Positions 5,706-36,007 of a stretch of DNA of 64,000 nucleotides are shown here, piece after piece. A model generated the notes under the pieces. That model had not been told where the DNA came from and did not search any database. It saw only the letters and a program-made list of their open reading frames with translations. Numbering within the stretch: the first letter of the stretch is position 1; every line of letters begins with the position of its first letter. Made by a program: the position numbers and the translations under genes. Source of the stretch: Bolinopsis microptera (Eukaryota > Ctenophora > Tentaculata > Lobata > Bolinopsidae). The stretch spans positions 9,979,460-10,043,459 of the forward strand of contig NC_087083.1 of NCBI RefSeq assembly GCF_026151205.1. Direction: 5' to 3'.

Positions 5706-8700
5706 CTGAATATGTGAGGTATTTGAGAGGTGTTACTGAGGTCCAACAGCCACTCCAGAAACGGTTCCTGGCCTTTATTTAACCTGCAAAAGATTACTAT
5801 CCGTTACTCATGTTCTCAGAACATTATCATAATCATCAAACTTTAATCAAATGTTAATCAAATGTTAATAATTAATTAAATGTTAATAGGGTTTCTGCAA
5901 CACATATTTCAGCATTTCGTTGATATTAAGACCTTTTTATTTGCTGCGTTATTTGACTTATTTAAATTATTAAAAATAGCAACTTATAGCTAGTTACGTG
6001 ATAATTTTACACCACGTGCAACATGACGTCACACCACGTGCAACATGACGTCACACCACGTGCAACATGACGTCACACCACGTGCAACATGATGTCACAC
6101 CACGTGCAACATGACGTCACACCACGTGCAACATGACGTCACACCACGTGCAACATGACGTCACACCACGTGCAACATGATGTCACACCACGTGCCACTT
6201 TACACTTACCCGCCGGTGCTCCAGAAAGTAGTAGAAACATTAGCACCCAGTGACATAATGTACTGAACATCCAGATTAGCTTCAAGTCCTGCTTTACCAC
6301 TGTTAGGTCCAACTTCGTGAGAGATCTGGGGAAATTACGTCACAAATTACGTCACAAATTACGTCACATTTACGTAACAAATTACGTCACATTGTTCCAC
6401 TTGTCAAATTGAAATAAGATTTGGAGTTATGAAAATTAGTATTATTATTTAATATGGCGGTAGAAATTACTTGTAGATTGTAGATCAATTGACATTAAAT
6501 TGACCTACATTATCACATTATAAATTGGAATTTTGAATAATAACAAAAAACTAAATCAATATTTTCCAATAAGTGAAAATAAAAAGAAAGTGAAAATGGA
6601 AAATAAAAGAAAGTGAAATAAAAGAAAAGGCAAAGCTACGTAATTGCGGCAAGAAACCAGAAAGCTACTCCAGTCACCAACCTTATTCAAATGGGGGAAA
6701 CCCTTGCCAAAATGGCTCATAAACTTTGTCAGGTCCCCAGCGGAGTAGAACTGTTTAAGGAACTGGGCGGTAGCCTGGTATAGTAGGGTTATTGGTTCAA
6801 AATATTCTATAATCGATAACTTTTTAGGAATTATCGAGATATTATCGGTTATCGGCGATATTACCTGGCATCCCAATGCGCGACCTTCTTTCCGAGCTTC
6901 TCGCATTGAGACTGAGACTACGTGAGAGTAGCGAGCAATAGACTAGCAAGCTGGTAATCGGCGATAATATGGTCATAAAATTTAATTGAGCTCATAATAG
7001 ATATAATATCTCGTTGCAAACACTACCTGGGAGTTGTTAGCGTTTGTAGCCACGTTGTCACTGACGTTGTAACGCTTGCGGAGTGTGTCGGGGTGGACCC
7101 CGTAACGGAACGCGGAGAGGTCGTCCGGTAACGGCATCCTGGAGTTGGGATGAGTTACAGGAGCATGTTAAGCGCTGTTGCTACCTTACTGTTGCTACGT
7201 ACTGTTGCTACGTACTTTACAGTGAATACTTAACTCAGACACCACTTGGACGGACTTTGAAATTAACACTCGAGGGCCATCTCTTAAGTCGTCCGCCAAA
7301 ATGTAAACAGATATTAAAATGACCGGACATTAAAATGAACGCTATAAGGGCCTCTATCGTCCAATTAATGTCCGTTCAAATAAAGTCCGATAAGATATAC
7401 TCACGTCTGTTTTATCTTGAGTTTGCTCTCCACGTTAGGAAGCCTGTGAACTCCTCCTATGAAGTCTAGTTTACTTGCTATTCTCTTAGGAACTGTGTAC
7501 TCCTGAGATACAGGTTACAATTCTGCAGTCCGCTCAGAGAGGGATTATGCGCGCTCAGCCAACAAACTTTGTTAAATGTATATTTATTTATCGAATTATC
7601 TGATATATAATATATTATGAAGGAGTAAGAGATTTATACCGCCATTATACATCATTTTGACTGTGTAAACTGCCCCAAAATACTCACAAACCGCTCTTGT
7701 ATTTACCTGAGTTGCTCTGATGATGACGTTATCCTTTTGTACGCTATGTTGAAAATAACCGAAGTTAGTTTCCAGCAGTTGTTCTGCCACACCAACAGTG
7801 ACCCTGTGAAGTCACAACATGAACTTACAACCTTTTGTTACCTGTTTTCAGGATTTATTTCGGTGTTGAATTTGAAACATTTCCGAAACTGGGACTTTGT
7901 TGGTGGTGAGATATGTACATTGTACACTGTACATTGTACATAGTACATTGTACACTGTACATTGTACACTGTACATTGTACATTGTACATTGTACACTGT
8001 ACATTGTACACTGTACATTGTACATTGTACATTGTACAGTCATATTCAACTACTTATTAAGTTATTATAGTGTTGTTCAACTACTACATGACATGGTTAA
8101 CTGAGAACAAACCTGCACTTGAGGAAATCTCGGGTTTCAATAAGAGAGCACGAGTCCACATTGTAGTGGTGTAACCAAACCATTATATCCTGAGAAACAT
8201 AACACGTGACGTCATACCACGTGACATGACGTCACACCACGTGACATTACGTCACACCACGTGACATTACGTCACACTAGAGACATAACACACGTAACAC
8301 ATGGAATATGTTTGGTGCGGTTTGAGAAATTGACAATCGTGGTTACACCACGTGATGTGACGTCATATTATTCAATTGACGTCAATTGACCAATTTACGT
8401 GACGTCATACCACGTGACGAACATCATTACCTTGATATCCTGAGGATGCGGCTGAACAATCTCCTTAACCTCCTCTAAACTCAGAAACTTGCCGTATCGA
8501 GCTGACAGAGGATCAGATACACTCCAGAACAGCTGTGTGAGGTCGTCTGTGTTCCTTTGTTTCAGGGCCAATACCAGGGTTGTTAGGTCCGACTTCAGGG
8601 CGTGTCTGATGGGGGATTGTGAGGTAATGTGATTATGTGGACTCGTGAAGTCACGTGTTGGACTCGTGAAGTCACGTGTTGGACTCGTGACCTCACGTGT

Positions 8701-10026
8701 TGGACTCGTGACCTCACGTGTTGGACTCGTGAAGTCACGAGTTGTACTCGTGACGTCATGTGTTGGACTCGTGAAGTCACGTGTTGTACTCGTGACGTCA
8801 TGTGTTGGACTCGTGACGTCATGTGTTGAACTCGTGAAGTCACGTGTTGGACTCGTGACGTCATGTGTTGGACTCGTGAAGTCACGTGTTGGACTCGTGA
8901 AGTCACGTGTTGGACTCGTGAAGTCACGAGTTGTACTCGTGACGTCACGAGTTGTACTCGTGACGTCATGTGTTGGACTCGTGAAGTCACGTGTTGTACT
9001 CGTGACGTCATGTGTTGGACTCGTGACGTCATGTGTTGGACTCGTGAAGTCACGTGTTGGACTCGTGAAGTCACGTGTTGGACTCGTGACGTCACGTGTT
9101 GGACTCGTGACCTCACGTGGTATGCATAAACAACTGTGTGAGGTGGTCTGTGTTACTTTGTTTCAGGGCCAATACCAGGGTTGTTAGGTATAACTTTAGA
9201 GTTTAGATCTTGTCTGAGGGGGAATTGATGAGTGACGTCATGGGATTAGCTGTGATCTTATGTCACGTACTGGGCTTGTTATGTCACGTGTTGGCAGGTG
9301 TTAGGCTTTTAATGTCACTTGAAAATAATAGGACGCTGCTGCAGCAAGCCCATTGGTTCCTCGAAGTCACGTGTTAAATCAGATGTTCATGCTGAGTTAG
9401 TTTACTACTACGTAGCACTATTCACTACAGACAGGAGTTGTTCTGTTCTAGTTTTCTAATGAGTTCTCATTTTCCAAAGACGAGTGCTCAACTGACATGC
9501 AGGAACATTTAAACACTTTTACAAAGACAACCTAAATTAACAAGCAAACGAATCGTATCGTAATATCGATAAAATAATAATGCACCATTGATTGTATTTG
9601 CTTTATCGATATCATGAAACGGAATTCGTTAATTGCCAACTGATTTGAAATGTTTGATTTGTTATGTCACTACATGGCACGTCACGTGGCACGTGGTCAC
9701 AGTTAAGGGGTCGTTAACAATTAACATATTACGTAATCACTGAGGGGGTTCCAAATATGTAATATTAACACAATAGCTGTGTGTAAACGTTTTCAACTAC
9801 AACGAAACGCAGTATGTCAATGTGAACGACCTCTAACGTGCGCGTGACATTTAGTCAATTAATAATTAATTATGAGCTGATCTTACCCGACAAAGTCCCA
9901 GTTGTCTCTACCAGGTAGAAGTTGTTTCCCCTCTACCCGAGCCCTGCCTCTGTTCACAGTAGATACCATCTCCACTCCCCCCACACACAGTGCCAGTGTC
10001 AGCACTGCCAGAACGTACTGTTTCAT
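5706..10026 (-). CDS. TPP1: Tripeptidyl-peptidase 1 (sedolisin family S53), 3' part missing
   Basis: Nine exons with consistent phases: 10026-9887, 8605-8431, 8189-8113, 7803-7707, 7502-7405, 7138-7027, 6774-6682, 6325-6210, 5783-5706 (986 coding bases, about 328 residues). The start gives a signal peptide ([17 protein letters not shown]). Exon 2 encodes [19 protein letters not shown], typical of the TPP1 pro-domain. Exon 5 has [11 protein letters not shown] and exon 6 LRKRYNV. Exon 8 encodes [13 protein letters not shown], whose E and D (about residues 279 and 283) match human Glu272 and Asp276 of the catalytic site. Exon 9 ([19 protein letters not shown]) ends in a good donor in phase 2. 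The second half, including the SGTSAS serine, is not found. The family protein is a lysosomal serine peptidase removing tripeptides from N-termini. The gene may be truncated, mis-assembled at the nearby G run, or continue past the lectin gene outside the window. Confidence 0.93.
6011..6205. repeat. 22-bp minisatellite with CACGTG and TGACGTCA
   Basis: Eight or so units of ACCACGTGCAACATGACGTC in TPP1 intron 8, starting only a few bases from the exon 8 donor. Two units carry TGATGTCA instead of TGACGTCA. A related short array of ATTACGTCACAA lies at 6332-6396 in intron 7. Confidence 0.9.
7913..8038. repeat. Self-complementary TGTACA-type repeat
   Basis: Tandem TGTACATTGTACAC-like units in TPP1 intron 3. 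Because TGTACA is its own reverse complement, the tract could fold into many alternative hairpins. Overlapping reading frames on both strands here are artefacts of the repeat. Confidence 0.9.
8204..8420. repeat. CACGTGAC/GACGTCA repeats in TPP1 intron 2
   Basis: Degenerate 18-22 bp units of CACCACGTGACATTACGTCA with further copies of the motif near 8343-8418, filling most of the intron between exons 2 and 3. Confidence 0.8.
8629..9119. repeat. 21-bp minisatellite (GGACTCGTGAAGTCACGTGT)
   Basis: About 23 units of 21 bp in TPP1 intron 1, each with TCACGTG or GACGTCA. It lies between exon 2 and a decayed duplicate of part of exon 2. Long open frames on both strands arise because the unit length is a multiple of three. 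No protein is implied. Confidence 0.93.
9131..9229 (-). pseudogene. Decayed partial copy of TPP1 exon 2 with its acceptor region
   Basis: Matches 8530-8620 with scattered substitutions: the stretch around TTTCAGGGCCAATACCAGGG is identical, while the segment after it is diverged and slightly longer. The two copies flank the 21-bp array, so a tandem duplication of the exon 5' end and its flank apparently preceded or accompanied array growth. It is in intron 1, and the frame is no longer obviously usable. Confidence 0.8.
9709..9834. mobile_element. MITE, family with GGGGTCGT termini (copy 1)
   Basis: Terminal inverted repeats GGGGTCGTT...AACGACCTC flanked by TAA on both sides, and sharing the internal words ACATATTACGTAATCA and GTGTGTAAA with copies near 12.3 and 19.5 kb. 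A 3-bp TSD of TWA type fits PIF/Harbinger elements. No coding capacity. In TPP1 intron 1. Confidence 0.7.
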
Positions 10027-12835: not shown

Positions 12836-22053
<9,218 letters not shown>

Positions 22054-27828: not shown

Positions 27829-30800
27829 ATGTCTGATGTTAGAAGGTTCTGCACTGATCTTACTCGTCTTCCATCCCCTGTTTACAAACCAATAAGTAAG
27901 CCTTTGTTAGATTTATTTGTTTAATTTAGCTTAATTATGAGATATAATCAAATGAATGTATATTTTTGAATTTTTAACATTTAATTTGATAATGCAGTAT
28001 AAAGAAATTTTTAATTAGCACTGTATAGTTTAAGATATTTATATTAGCTTATTATAACCATTGATACAACGACCATAATTTTTCAACAGCTCTCCAATAT
28101 CCATCTTTAAGTTGCATCTTATATCCTCAAACTACACAATTTAAACTTAGGCATATATATAGTGTAGACTTTCTGTCACAACAAGACTGTAACCCATAGT
28201 AACAAACACAAACAGAACCCCTAACGTCTGCTAACAATTTTCTTCTGATCCTCATATGAGCCCTGTCTCTAAAAACTCAACTGAACTAGCGTTTTGGTGT
28301 GTGCAAAAGCTTTCAGGCACGCACATTCCCTGCCCCGTTAGTTGCCTGTCCCTTCAAAATCAAACTTACAGTCAAGGACAAAAAGTCATACACCAAATGA
28401 GCATTATATTTTTATAAATTGTTTTACATCTCTTTACTCTGTAAAATGTGCTAAAAATTAAATTTGTTTCCTTGAAATTTGGCATGATCTATCGCTTATC
28501 AATTATAGTCCTGTTTAAAGAATTCTTTTAAGAAAGCATTTTAAAATTCGATTTAAAAAGCATGTTTTGCTTTGAATTATCGCTAATATATGCATATTAA
28601 TGTTTAAAAACACCACTACAATTCCATGGACTTCCATTGCAAATTTGATTTAAACAATCTCTTATTTTTCAGATACAAATCAAGGAGTTTATGCAAGAGC
28701 AGTTCTTAAGGAAAATGCCAAATTTATGCTTGTCATGGAGAATGGCTCCAAGGAAGGCAAGGATCAGAATATAAAGCGTGCATTTTCTGCACAACCTGGT
28801 TAGAAGCAAACTTTTCTGTATTCTAAACAATTCACAGTTACCTGAATTTGAATAACAAGTTTATCAGTGTGAGGTTCTGATTATCTTGTTGAGTTCAATG
28901 AAACTGATATATCAGTTTATGTAGTACACTTGAAGTACAATTCTGGGATGTAATTTTGAACATGAAAAACACTATCTCTTCTATCTTAATATGAGAATTT
29001 AGAGATAACCAATAACGTTGACTTCCCCGATTAATAAATCCTACAACCAACCCTCTTAAATTGTTCTATGTAACAGATGAACCTCACAGGTAAGCATCGA
29101 GGAGTACGTCCAATGCACATGAGCACCCTTTGTTTGGAACATGATAATCCACCTCTTGCTGAGGTACCCTCTTACAGCAGACATTTTAACAGCAAGAAGG
29201 GACTACGCCCAGCTGCCAGATCGAGCCAGTATCCTTCACAGTTTATCAGGTTTGTTACTGATAACCGACAATCTGTTCTAACAACTTTACAATTAATATT
29301 AATTAATTATTATTATTAGATTTGATTAATTAATATTAAAACCTTTTAATGTATCAGTTCCAACTACTTTCACTTAAGATTAATCCATTACTCACCACAC
29401 AGCCAGATATCGTTGGAACACAGTCCTAAAGGTAAGATAGAGTGCTCGGAGAACACAACCAACAAATCTACTTTCCAGCATTGGCCGGAGCCACATGTCC
29501 GGAGTTGCTCAAGAGAGGTTTTTCGAATAAATTTTCAAAATTTTTTATATTTTTTTGTAATATTGCCTCTTTCAAGAAAAATTATGACCTGATTGCTCGG
29601 AACTTTTTCCGATTTCTGTCACCGGGGAAATGTCTGAGACCAACTTGATCTGACTGTCGTATCAGCTTCTAATGATAGTGACGTATTATTTTATCCATGT
29701 TCATGTTATAAGTTTGCACAGTTTAGTTTTATGGCGATAAAAAATCAACTTTTTGTACCGCTGTATTGTATGCATGGTAACTGTAACCATTTTGACTCTA
29801 TTTTCAATTTTATAGACTGTGATCATGTTGCTTGTTGGTGGTTATTAACAACTATAGAGATCACTGAAATCAATCTATCAAGATGATTTATTATATATAG
29901 AGAGATTCAAATGATTACCAATTTTCACAATGTATTCATATTTCTGGTGACAGAAAGTCTACTTTTTTTAAATTGAGTTACTTGTGTCTATAGAATAAAA
30001 GTCTTTATTAAATCTGTAAAATCTGTAAATAATATCATGCTACGATATTGTCTACATGCTGAGAAGAAAGTTAAAATTTACTGTCAGAGAGATTTAAATT
30101 CTTTATAACTCGAGCAATTTCAGTTAATCTATTTATATTTTGAATGGTATGTTGGTATTGGTATGGTTTCTTCATGGGATCAAATAGGCATATTCCACAC
30201 ACATGTAATGCTCGATAACAATTTTAATTTTTTGGATTTATAAAATATTTTGTTGGCATTTCTTGCTTCACAAATTTCAGTACTGTTGAGTAAATCCTTC
30301 TGGTTTATGTCAAGCAAAGATTTACCACGTATAGCTATATCGGGAGTCCGTTAATCTGATCGACTATGAGGTGTTAATGATAAGTTAATAATTAATTTAA
30401 ATAACGTTGATAATTTAATATAATAGCGGTGGATACAAAGGAACTACATTTTACAATTATCTACTTTAAAATCGAGTGTGTATCAGCTTGAATAGTTCTC
30501 CCACGTAACTATTTAGTGTAACTGGATAGCTCAATTGAGCACAGAGGTATTTGCAAAGTTATTTCCGAAGGTATTGAATGAAAAATTAAATGAGTTGCTA
30601 TATAATTGAAATGAAGTTTGACCTATTAAAATTAAATATTTTATTTAAAAAAGGCCGGAGTGATAAAATGTTAACCTACTCTTCGTGCAAATCCTGTAAT
30701 ATCACTGCAATATAAGGCCTGTAACTGCTAATATGGTGGCTACTTATTAGTAACTGCTTACTCGATAACACCTGTAAATTATTATACAGTGAGATGAACA

Positions 30801-32541
30801 CCTGTAACTTATTATACAGTGAGATGAACACCTGTAACCACTCATTACTGATAGCGCCTGTAACTAACCAGTAACCATGATATAATAAGTTTAATATTAA
30901 GTGTAACGTACGTGTATTTCAGAGGAACAAGGAGAATATAAGGAGTATAATAATTAATAACACGTGTGTATTTCAGAGGAACAAGGAGAATATAAGGAGT
31001 ATAATAACACGTGTGTATTCCAGAGGAACAAGGAGAATATAAGAAGTATAATAACACGTGTGTATTTCAGAGGAACAAGGAGAATATAAGGAGTATAATA
31101 ACAAGTGTGTATTTCAGAGGAACAAGGAGAATATAAGGAGTATAATAACACGTGTGTATTCCAGAGGAACAAGGAGAATATAAGGAGTATAATAACACGT
31201 GTGTATTTCAGAGGAACAAGGAGAATATGAGCCGTATAATAACACGTGTGTATTTCAGAGGAACAAGGAGAATATAAGGAGTATAATAACACGTGTGTAT
31301 TTCAGAGGAACAAGGAGAATATAAGGAGTATAATAACACGTGTGTATTTCAGAGGAACAAGGAGAATATAAGGAGTATAATAACACGTGTGTATTTCAGA
31401 GGAACAAGGAGAATATGAGGAGTATAATAACACGTGTGTATTTCAGATGAACAAGGAGAATATAAGGAGAATAATAACACGTGTGTATTTCAGAGGAACA
31501 AGGAGAATATAAGGAGTATAATAACACCTGTGTATTTCTGAGGAACAAGGAGAATATAAGAAGTATAATAACACGTGTGTATTTCAGAGGAACAAGGATA
31601 ATATAAGGAGTATAATAACACGTGTGTATTTCAGAGGAACAAGGATAATATAAGGAGTATAATAACACGTGTGTATTTCTGAGGAACAAGGAGAATATGA
31701 GCCGTATAATAACACGTGTGTATTTCAGAGGAACAAGGAGAATATAAGGAGTATAATAACACGTGTGTATTTCAGAGGAACAAGGAGAATATAAGGAGTA
31801 TAATAACACGTGTGTATTTCAGAGGAACAAGGAGAATATAAGGAGTATAATAACACGTGTGTATTTCAGAGGAACAAGGAGAATATAAGGAGTATAATAA
31901 CACGTGTGTATTTCAGAAGAACAAGGAGAATATAAGGAGTATAATAACACGTGTGTATTTCAGAGGAACAAGGAGAATATAAGGAGTATAATAACACGTG
32001 TGTATTTCAGAGGAACAAGGAGAATATAAGGAGTATAATGACACGTGTGTATTTCAGAGGAACAAGGAGAATATAAGGAGTATAATAACACGTGTGTATT
32101 TCAGAAGAACAAGGAGAATATAAGGAGTATAATAACACGTGTGTATTTCAGAGGAACAAGGAGAATATAAGGAGTATAATAACACGTGTGTATTTCAGAG
32201 GAACAAGGAGAATATAAGGAGTATAATAACACGTGTGTATTTCAGAGGAACAAGGAGAATATAAGGAGTATAATAACACGTGTGTATTTCAGAGGAAGAA
32301 GGAGAATATAAGGAGTATAATAACACGTGTGTATTTCAGAGGAACAAGGAGAATATGAGGAGTATAATAACACGTGTGTATTTCAGAGGAACAAGGAGAA
32401 TATAAGGAGTATAATAACACGTGTGTATTTCAGAGGAACAAGGAGAATATGAGGAGTGGAGTGGATGGAGCAGAGGTTGTTTATGAAACTCTCTTTCCCA
32501 CAATGTACTCCAGCACCTACGATAAGAGCTTTCATCAGTAG
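27829..32541 (+). CDS. Small unrecognised protein, five exons, last exon behind a splice-acceptor array
   Basis: Exons 27829-27895, 28673-28798, 29090-29249, 29407-29431, 32434-32541 (486 bases, 161 residues) join in frame with GT-AG at every boundary. The product starts MSDVRRFCTDLTRLPSPVYK, has GVYARAVLKENAKFMLV, is basic and has no signal peptide or membrane segment. It ends LFPTMYSSTYDKSFHQ. Short, Tyr-rich proteins with a C-terminal TTY..F-like motif are common among axonemal microtubule-associated proteins, a weak hint only. I do not recognise the family. The exon 3 acceptor (CTCACAG|GT) and exon 4 acceptor (CCAG|AT) are chosen because they alone keep frame. Upstream alternatives at 29077 or 29403 create stops. 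Confidence 0.65.
30908..32459 (+). repeat. 47-bp array duplicating a 3' splice site and exon start
   Basis: About 33 copies of a unit reading GTGTATTTCAG|AGGAACAAG then GAGAATATAAGGAGTATAAT. The last copy is the real acceptor and first 23 bases of the terminal exon of the 27.8-kb gene. Copies differ by 0-3 bases and nearly all keep the TTTCAG acceptor (two have TTTCTG, two or three TTCCAG). The long minus-strand open frames here come from the repeat. Confidence 0.95.
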
Positions 32542-32831
32542 CTTGTTGTTTAGTCACGTGATCCCCCGGCTCACGTGATCTCTCCTGATGAATAGGACTG
32601 TTGAACGGGTATTGGGGAAATAGGCTAAAATTTGTAACGGGACTGTTTTAAAATTAGGATGTAGCTTTCAACCAAAATTGTTGTATTTTGTAAAATCTGG
32701 AGCTCTATAATAATATTGCTTTTTTCAGTGAGATGCTGTTATAACCCACATTTAGTCACAACATTATAACATTCCCACTTTTAGTACGAGTCAATATGAT
32801 TACAGGATCTCATCTAATATGAGCTAATATG

Positions 32832-34429
32832 GACACGTTCATAAAAAGGTGGCACTAGAGATTGATTTTTCACTGCCAAAATTGTGTGAAGCATTTTAAA
32901 ATACTTGTATCTCAAGGAGTATGCTATGAAAGTTAACCAAATTTTAATATGTGGTCCAAAAAGATTCAAATGTCACATAATTAAGTCATTCATCTCTTTA
33001 TATCTGTTAATTGTGCAGATATGAGCCAGAAATCACAAAATATTCATTTCTTGCACCTCTAATGATGAATTTACATTCTGTGAGTGTGTCCTGCTTCTCA
33101 ATGCGATTATTGAACCTTTTTGAGATAGTTGAGTGTTAAAAGTGCAAAGAGTCACCGGTTAAATGTGGAGTTACGATGCAATTATCACACACAGGGTTAA
33201 TTCTGACTAATTATTTTAGAATGATGAATGTGATATGAATATCAACGGAATGATTGTAATAATGAACTCTATCGATCACAATTATAGCATGCTAACTAAT
33301 ATTTAGAGAATTTAGATGGTTAAAAGTGCCATAATGAGTCAAAAATCACATAAATGAGCATGTATTGAAATTATGCTGTATCAGGGGAATGAATCACTTT
33401 TTGGCTCTATATCAGGTTGGTATTCATAGTAAATCTGCAGTGATTTGTTGTGACACTTGTTTATGGTCATGGAGAAGTTCGTTATTAGAGTAATAGTGGA
33501 ATCAATAATCACAAAACACTGATTTTAAACTGAGTAAACTAGGCAAGTACTTTTACTACTCAAGCCATGATAATTTTGTCTCCATAATGTGAGAAATGAA
33601 TCAATCAGTAACGTATAATACTTAATTGAATTTTTGAAATGTGATTTTCGATTCATTACCTTTCCTTTCAAAATGTCATTACAACTTGAACATTACATAT
33701 GATTCAATTGTCACACTTTAAAGAAAATTACATATTTGGTAGCTCGATTTATGTGATTTTTGAATCATTTAGCACCAAGATCAAAAATTATCGCTCAAAG
33801 ACCTTCAATATGGTATAAGCTTAGACATAGATTCAAAAATCACATAATAAGAATCATAGAATGGACATAAATTGTCATATCGTGCACTTAATTTAAGGCT
33901 TACTATAGTGTGACTTAATAGCGCACCTTTAACGAAAATGTGACTTTTGAATCATATTAACTGGTTTTAATACTATTTAATACTATTTTGTACCCTAAAA
34001 AATGATAGAAAGCCAATAAAAACGTTAGATGATTCAATAATCACTGCTCAAAATAGGCTCATTTCCAACGTTTAAGTTGTGATTTTTGACTCATTTTGGC
34101 ACCAATAACAATTTCAGATAAGACATTCCATTCCTTACATGCATTATAGTCACCATATCAATTTTGGCTTCTTTGTGAATAGTACTTTTCAGATTATCTA
34201 GTGTTGATTCATCTTGCATTTCTAATTGTGTGACTTTTGACTCATTGGCACACTAATAACGATAACTCCTGTGACATATGCACTAGAGACTCCGTGATTT
34301 CAGGATCATGAAATTTAATCGAATTTCTAAAGGTATAGATAGATATATCAACCAACAAAGAGCAATGACTATTTTTAAAACGCATTTAAAAAAATCAATC
34401 TCTAGTGCCACCTTTTTTTGAACGTGTCC
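32832..34429. mobile_element. 1.6-kb non-autonomous inverted-repeat transposon
   Basis: Termini GGACACGTTCATAAAAAGG... and the complementary end at 34390-34429 match over about 40 bp (through GTGGCACTAGAGATTGATTT). The interior has no long frame but many copies, in both orientations, of a TGTGATTTTTGACTCATT-like word. Flanks are ATAT on each side, so the exact TSD is unclear. Confidence 0.8.
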
Positions 34430-36007
34430 ATATAATAATGTCACCTGTAAGACTTGATTACCCTGCACGGTGATTCTGCTAAAAGTTACATGCAACAATC
34501 ATTGCTAGTGCTGGAAGTGCATCCTAGATTCGATCATGTTGTAAGCAGAATTATGCAGGGGAGTCAGGGGGCTGAGAGATTATAATCTAACGTATATATA
34601 CGTTATATAATAGGTTAGGTACTTACGGAGATGCCATTATGATGTGGCTGCTGAGCTTACGATATTTGGGTATTGTCCATAATTTGTATCTTAAGTTTCA
34701 TCTTAAGATTTAAATGGATGATTTGTTTTAGATAAGATTTTATAAGAGGCATAATGTATTTATATGAAAATTACACCTTGAATCAAAATATGTCATATCT
34801 ATCATGTAGCATACATATCACGTGACAAATATTTTTGTCGAATAGACAAATTTGTTAAGATTTAAAGATTTTTGATTATTATTATTTGGTGGTTGTGGAT
34901 AGTTAATAAAGTCAGATTTTTTCCCGATCCATGACTCGTGCCGAAGGCACAAAAGAGTCAAGGACAAGGGTTAGCGATCGAGGTTTTTTTTGTATATGGT
35001 AGCTTTGCGACCGAGCGTGCGTGCGTGCGTGCGTGCGTACGTGCCTGCGAGCAATGTTATCGCCCACGTGACTACCTGCGCAAAGTTATTTTGCGTGATA
35101 ATCTGAATTATATAATTGTTGGCGCGCGGCGCTGAACCAACCAAGTACATTATTAATTTCATCATGTACGTATCCCACTAGGCACTAATTGATAGCATAT
35201 TATTATTATTTTGAGTTAGTATTACTATTTTGCACAGATCCGTGTCAGGTTGCATAAACAATAAACATATGGTTACATAGAAGTATACACGATTTTCAAA
35301 TTCAATATAGAATTATATTAACTGGGCGGCGCTCGGCAGTCGGCATGTCACTTCGCCATATTTGCATGTTTATATAAACAGTAAAGACTGGGCCGTCCCC
35401 AGGTTGTATGGAATATGATAAATACGCCATCACGGATCGGGAAATTGAGCGGCCATCCACAAAAGAAAAGCGGCCGCATTTCTTGTTAGCTTAAAGGATT
35501 GTTATTTTCTACTTTCCAGTATATTGATTCTATCGATGAAATGCATTTTATTTTGATCTCATCAATATTTATCCCTTATTTTATGAGCTGTTAATAGGGT
35601 GTGTACAAACTTTTGTAACAAGTTGAAAGGTTTTTGTTTATAAAATTGCTGTAGATTTTATACCGGATATATCAATAATTATGCCATTTAGAGTTTTTTA
35701 TTCATTAGTTGTTTTATTTCAGCAGTGTTTAAAATTGAGTTTACAACAACAAATAATTTAATCGAAATACAAAAAAAACAGGTCTTTCTGTATCTAGAGA
35801 TTCTGAGGAACTCAACAATCCAATGATAGGCAGATAAGCTTAATTCAGCCTAAAGAGCTAAAGGACGCAACTGCCGATGTAAATAAATCGCATACAATCA
35901 AAATTATGCAATCAAAATCACTATATAGTATACACCCACGATCATATTATATGATCAAAACACAAAGCTTTGAAATATACTTTTTCTGTTTGAGATTTGA
36001 ATAACGT
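34430..36007. other. Intergenic, no gene seen
   Basis: AT-rich. Contains a GTGC microsatellite at 35017-35042 and a small hairpin near 34930 (ACTCGTGCCGAAGGCAC). No supportable coding sequence. Confidence 0.5.

Follow-up and report, generated by a model that had tools for sequence, protein, structure and literature searches.

The question raised by this locus is how the last intron of a gene can be joined to its terminal exon if the junction between the two is present in dozens of near-identical copies. The window, i.e. the 64-kb stretch of Bolinopsis microptera DNA analysed here (positions 9979460-10043459 of contig NC_087083.1, in an assembly of 264,652,675 bases and 232 contigs that was searched as the genome), has as its top-scoring tandem repeat a 47-bp repeat for which TRF reports 32.0 copies at 30955-32457 (96% matches, score 2831). 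A diverged extra first copy at about 30910-30954 brings the plus-strand minisatellite at 30910-32457, as delimited by TRF, a genome-wide pattern search and comparison of the copies, to 33 copies in all, in agreement with the preliminary description, where about 33 had been counted. The unit reads TAATAACACGTGTGTATTTCAG, then AGGAACAAGGAGAATATAAGGAGTA, and contains a TAATAAC-like branch motif (recognized by eye, and different in the first copy), a TTTCAG-type acceptor and about 24 bases of exon sequence from the beginning of the predicted last exon.

A 28-base unit pattern with up to three mismatches occurs at 33 places in the whole genome, all of them within this array, while the pattern written backwards occurs at none; a DNA search of the genome with the array as query, which passes over simple repeats and very common words, returns the array only. 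Both the TRF score and this uniqueness argue that the array is not a product of chance. A transposon origin is ruled out by the restriction of the pattern to this one locus, and a coding function of the array by its reading frames, which close within one to three units in the copies tested; Rfam gives no match at gathering score.

The 32 full copies differ from their consensus at zero to four positions each. The acceptor AG, directly followed by the exon-start sequence, is present in 31 of the 33 units, so that TTTCAG, described earlier as a constituent of every unit, is replaced by TTTCTG in the two copies whose acceptors lie at 31541 and 31682. Changes are spread over all parts of the unit, with the intronic part slightly less altered than the exonic one (1/224 cells in the branch-like part, 2/224 in the spacer, 4/256 in the acceptor part and 19/800 in the exonic part, for 32 copies). 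Few differences, falling on every part of the unit, are what would be expected of a young minisatellite. These per-cell changes give no clear sign of selection on the acceptor positions, and since the counts are too small and the shared ancestry of the copies too strong, no claim of selection is made.

Whether these acceptors matter depends on the gene to which they would belong. The preliminary description placed the array at the last exon of a "27.8-kb gene", which as a length is ruled out, the plus-strand span 4.7-32.5 kb crossing the minus-strand genes TPP1, RAB2 and ICMT. The figure was therefore taken to mean a gene starting near 27.8 kb, and a five-exon plus-strand model starting at 27829 does end at the array. 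Predicted exon 1, with the ATG start (27829-27895, donor score 5.9), has a coding score of -3.0 bits, composition giving it no support; exon 2 (28673-28798, acceptor 8.8, donor 5.7) scores 4.0 bits, exon 3 (29178-29249, acceptor 6.3, donor 6.4) 12.3 bits, and the 29-bp exon 4 (29403-29431, acceptor 6.3, donor 10.6) 0.9 bits in frame and 5.9 bits in another frame. The predicted last intron (29432-32433) is 3.0 kb long, its 3′ half being the 47-bp array, and the predicted terminal exon (32434-32541), 35 codons and a TAG, starts within the last array copy. This exon scores 8.9 bits in frame; another frame reaches 12.4 bits but contains a stop. The model as a whole comprises 402 bases encoding 133 residues, with GT-AG introns and all four junctions in phase.

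The score of the model, 32.0, is matched by 15.3% and 18.0% of the chains in two controls (the reversed and the complemented sequence, 150 chains sampled for each), and the terminal exon accordingly stays a prediction, as does the placement of the array at the end of a gene. The best unconstrained chain into the same terminal exon scores 46.3 (matched by 2.7% and 7.3% of control chains), and ICMT 97.9 on the same scale. No homologue of the 133-residue product is found in Pfam or PDB, PDB matches at E 0.67-1.9 and a match to NAAA-beta (14.9-16.4 bits versus a cut-off of 27) being taken as noise, and a genome search gives only its own exons among the matches listed. In Pfam searches with the three plus-strand frames of 2.6-32.4 kb (stops as X), nothing exceeds a curated cut-off and two matches lie below it (E 0.006-0.008). 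A ciliary-protein identity of the product, a mere impression, was not adopted. With control chains scoring as well in 15-18% of cases and no homologue, the gene is plausible rather than established.

The coding model behind these scores is crude; it was trained on kinase loci, single-exon ORF loci (together 35 of the 37 loci L027-L063, with L030 and L051 dropped) and two stretches of the window, and the splice matrices are generic. Early gene-finder chains were discarded, as a low exon penalty joined pieces of several genes and higher penalties gave shifting chains. The gene finder recovered the known minus-strand genes at about 6-25 kb, namely ICMT (Pfam 9e-25), RAB2 (Ras, 2e-45) and a TPP1-like S53 protease (pro-kumamolisin domain 4e-32; PDB tripeptidyl-peptidase 1, 1.7e-28), as well as a CCT chaperonin gene of 11 exons; where its models of RAB2 and TPP1 were visibly wrong, the faulty parts were manually corrected or omitted. 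About 290 bp 3′ of the predicted stop lies a 1.6-kb repetitive element (32827-34433) with inverted ends of about 44 bp, flanked by TA, which has many full-length or partial copies in the genome (94-99% identity among the long ones listed).

Provided that the model holds, 31 acceptors are available to splicing, of which one has to be selected. As had been proposed, only the last one, at 32434, leads through 35 codons to the TAG. From all 32 upstream copies, including the two that lack the AG, the frame stops early, after 15-39 codons. The earlier statement that TAA follows after 21 codons from any upstream copy holds exactly for 24 of them; in four (acceptors 31165, 31353, 32293 and 32387) the stop after 21 codons is TGA, including, as described, the penultimate copy (32387), in three a TGA follows after 15-16 codons, and from the first copy a TAA follows after 39. 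Of the 32 upstream copies, 25 match the exon-adjacent acceptor at every one of the last 20 intron bases. Most copies, the last among them, have an acceptor score of 4.8, and the scores of the 31 copies with AG span 4.3-5.8, so that there are 30 intact upstream acceptors of about equal score and the last copy has no advantage over them in this 20-base stretch. The array thus does present dozens of near-identical acceptors, which splicing would have to skip insofar as the predicted gene exists. In most units a single donor-like site exceeds a score of 2, namely CAC/GTGTGT (score 6.1, the slash marking the junction); it lies 13 bases before the AG of its own unit and may, if spliced to the AG of a later unit, give a 35-base cassette.

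On balance, the array is probably a junction-spanning minisatellite that splicing tolerates, with the exon-adjacent acceptor in use and without a regulatory role. The minisatellite would have grown from a piece of DNA that spanned the boundary between last intron and last exon in a small predicted gene, presumably by local duplication of about 45 bp and then by slippage or unequal exchange to 33 near-identical copies, each of which would by construction hold the acceptor together with the branch-like motif before it and the exon start after it. The last acceptor would most likely be used and the rest of the array removed with the intron, while some leakage to upstream copies could yield a protein with a short array-coded tail. 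As arrays are densely packed in the window (TRF gives 76 rows, which partly overlap), some junctions are bound to be struck by them. Against the tolerated minisatellite stand the missing homologues of the gene model and its lack of significance relative to the control chains, the local sequence, which does not favour the last copy, and a simple first-AG choice, which would favour the most upstream acceptor.

The alternative with the strongest claim, unlikely as it is, would be that the gene model is wrong and the array an ordinary non-coding minisatellite whose unit holds TTTCAG by chance, the 35-codon stretch being accidental. This would agree with the frequency at which control chains reach the score of the model, with exons 1 and 4 lacking a coding signal, with the missing homologue, and with the 3′ flank, where neither AATAAA nor ATTAAA occurs between 32542 and 32827. 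Such an accident would, however, have to supply four in-phase junctions with usable GT-AG sites and an exon 3 that is among the 15 plus-strand exons above the exon-score threshold (3 and 10 in the controls). The unique 80 bp of the last exon can be read either way, scoring 11.1 bits in frame but slightly more, 12.1 bits, in another frame that is closed.

Rather improbable is a regulatory decoy array in which the acceptors compete, productive splicing is thereby reduced or tuned, and the copy number sets the output between alleles. The many intact upstream acceptors of about equal score and the early stops from every upstream copy would suit such a function, for which there are human precedents in the CBS 31-bp VNTR (PMC2630376) and the TERT VNTR6-1 (PMC11830802), both treated below. 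The acceptor positions, on the other hand, bear no clear mark of being held by selection, and similar arrays are found in RAB2 as well. Moreover, the suggestion of a poison-exon array is not supported, the possible 35-base cassette apart: upstream acceptors would lengthen the last exon, leaving no exon junction downstream, and the usual nonsense-mediated decay (NMD) depends on an exon junction downstream of the stop. Since the array acceptors are last-exon acceptors, neither a poison exon nor NMD is implied, and junction-dependent NMD of the early-stop forms is not expected. Least probable of all, a truly used upstream acceptor, with a protein ending in an array-coded tail (mostly 21 residues, 39 from the first copy) and the array as 3′UTR, would fit the first-AG logic, the nearly equal scores and the stops inside the array region, but has against it the open, coding-like frame in the unique part of the last exon as well as RAB2 and CBS 844ins68, where the exon-adjacent site is favoured.

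That arrays of decoy sites can be passed over is shown by RAB2 on the opposite strand (best PDB match Rab-2B, 8.3e-78), insofar as its exon boundaries can be read from homology. At 19179-19370 (minus strand; TRF and gene model) an 11-bp array with about 18 copies of the donor junction ACCAG/GTTAST overlaps the exon end at 19365; exon 19365-19447 ends ATTACCAG/GTTAGT, and the copies of the junction run on into the intron. Four decoy donors in or just beyond this array score 8.9, as does the real donor. A second array, at 13403-13902 (minus strand; TRF), touches a RAB2 acceptor and consists of 14-bp units in two blocks, 13403-13438 (2.6 copies) and 13791-13902 (8.0 copies), split by an insert of about 350 bp which, judged by a motif, may be tRNA-derived. 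The units, TTACAGTTTGCTAA, lie ahead of exon 13259-13402, whose beginning reads GGAGAACAGTTTGCTAAGG; by eye they resemble this beginning, and they carry TTACAG decoy acceptors. The joined exons read YDIT-RRDTF and YEE-GEQF, and this conserved frame, as predicted from the genomic sequence, requires the exon-adjacent junctions. Since homology fixes these sites, decoy donor and acceptor arrays evidently coexist with a conserved gene. In contrast to the last acceptor of the 47-bp array, however, the real RAB2 acceptor outscores its decoys (7.7 versus at most 5.7; one AG in the inserted element reaches 6.1). A RAB2 intron also contains a single plus-strand open frame of 504 codons (14521-16032) without a Pfam match, which has 86 genomic matches, many of them in open frames of about 500 codons.

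Taken together, 64 kb contain three splice-junction arrays in two genes, two overlapping a junction by TRF and one touching it, and junction arrays may hence be common in this lineage. For a wider comparison, 41 gene-model introns were assembled, 37 from RAB2, TPP1, ICMT, four CCT loci and two kinases and four from the predicted gene; the genes of the 37 are Pfam-supported, not every boundary was checked by homology, and uncertain introns were removed by hand. Two loci (L079 and L080) with no TRF array were kept out. Nineteen arrays with a TRF score of at least 50 lie in these introns. Overlap with a junction is no commoner than in random placement (2/19 versus 1.50 expected, P 0.46), which makes the 47-bp array ordinary for this genome. 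A 3′ splice site lies within 20 bp of the array end in 8/19 cases versus 1.72 expected (none of 10,000 random placements as high), whereas a 5′ site does so in 1/19 versus 1.72. The 3′ excess is also seen for arrays of at least three copies (5/11 versus 0.90 expected), for the arrays of the window (5/15 versus 0.89), for those outside it (3/4 versus 0.83, P 0.03) and with the intron of the 47-bp array left out (7/16 versus 1.64). It is not repeated in a noisier set of 135 strong predicted exons, taken from both strands of the 38 loci L026-L063, of L079-L080 and of the window after 34433 and including antisense and intronless predictions: arrays lie within 20 bp of three acceptors (one of them, the L026 case, being the window's own RAB2 array) and two donors, and within 150 bp of five acceptors and eight donors. 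Having been noticed before it was tested, and lacking confirmation in the 135 exons, the 3′ bias is only a lead. The most striking member of the intron set is a CCT chaperonin intron in which a 30-bp unit containing ACTAAC and runs of pyrimidines is repeated 61 times (L075:3177-5076), the array ending 19 bp before the acceptor. It nevertheless appears improbable that in this genome minisatellites grow by preference at the 3′ ends of introns and form there redundant branch-point and acceptor arrays whose copy number modulates splice-site choice.

Among known systems, the closest relatives of the 47-bp array are two human CBS variants. The 31-bp VNTR c.1444_1467+7(16_21) is a minisatellite of 16-21 units (PMC2630376) whose coordinates, read from this notation, run from exon into intron, so that the tandem repetition includes a splice site; according to the title of Lievers 2001, cited in the same paper, the VNTR is linked to reduced CBS activity. 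Likewise, the units of the 47-bp array each hold a splice site with flanking exon sequence (31/33). In the CBS VNTR, however, the repeated site is a donor, the gene is known, an effect has been reported and length polymorphism is documented, whereas here an acceptor is repeated in a predicted gene of one assembly. In CBS 844ins68 the intron/exon junction is present in a tandem copy, and splicing strongly prefers the distal site next to the exon (PMC2630376); this splice-site duplication also appears in PMC4479818, and the title of Romano 2002 speaks of a 3′ splice site. One extra 68-bp copy is present there as against 32 extra copies here. 844ins68 would thus be a reported precedent for distal choice and the VNTR one for a many-copy junction array.

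Intronic minisatellites, too, can bear on splicing, as is suggested by two further cases. The VNTR6-1 in TERT intron 6 (38 bp, 24-66.5 copies) is linked to TERT splicing (PMC11830802) and resembles the 47-bp array in unit size, copy number and this link, but lies inside the intron, with no repeated splice site mentioned in the parts consulted. The C. elegans minisatellite CeRep25B is enriched in introns near alternative splicing (PMC4039745); this 24-base repeat family would act, if at all, through intronic motifs, whereas the present array repeats the splice site itself. A narrow search of open papers by titles and abstract beginnings gave no description of a many-copy acceptor array. By comparison, the 47-bp array is best read as a tolerated junction-spanning minisatellite akin to the CBS 31-bp VNTR and 844ins68. 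If the gene is real, it would offer a natural test of acceptor choice, with 31 locally near-equal copies competing in one intron and array length as a variable that can be changed; common junction arrays would allow one to study how the splicing machinery distinguishes the correct site from identical ones next to it.

Further repeats occur elsewhere in the window. In TPP1, exon 6210-6325 is flanked by two arrays, at distances of 6 and about 14 bp (region 6009-6393), and an array near exon 8431-8605 (8638-9213) is bounded by what by eye appears to be a degenerate duplicate of the latter exon (about 9131-9213). At 850-2790 a cysteine-rich repeat protein frame extends over a 90-bp array of 14.3 copies; after an in-frame stop at 2173-2175 the same frame continues to a hydrophobic, by eye transmembrane-like stretch. 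The hexamer CACGTG occurs 96 times in the whole window, versus about 7 expected from base composition, with 66 of the 96 inside 25 tandem arrays and 30 of these in the 47-bp array, and TGACGTCA occurs 36 times in the whole window.
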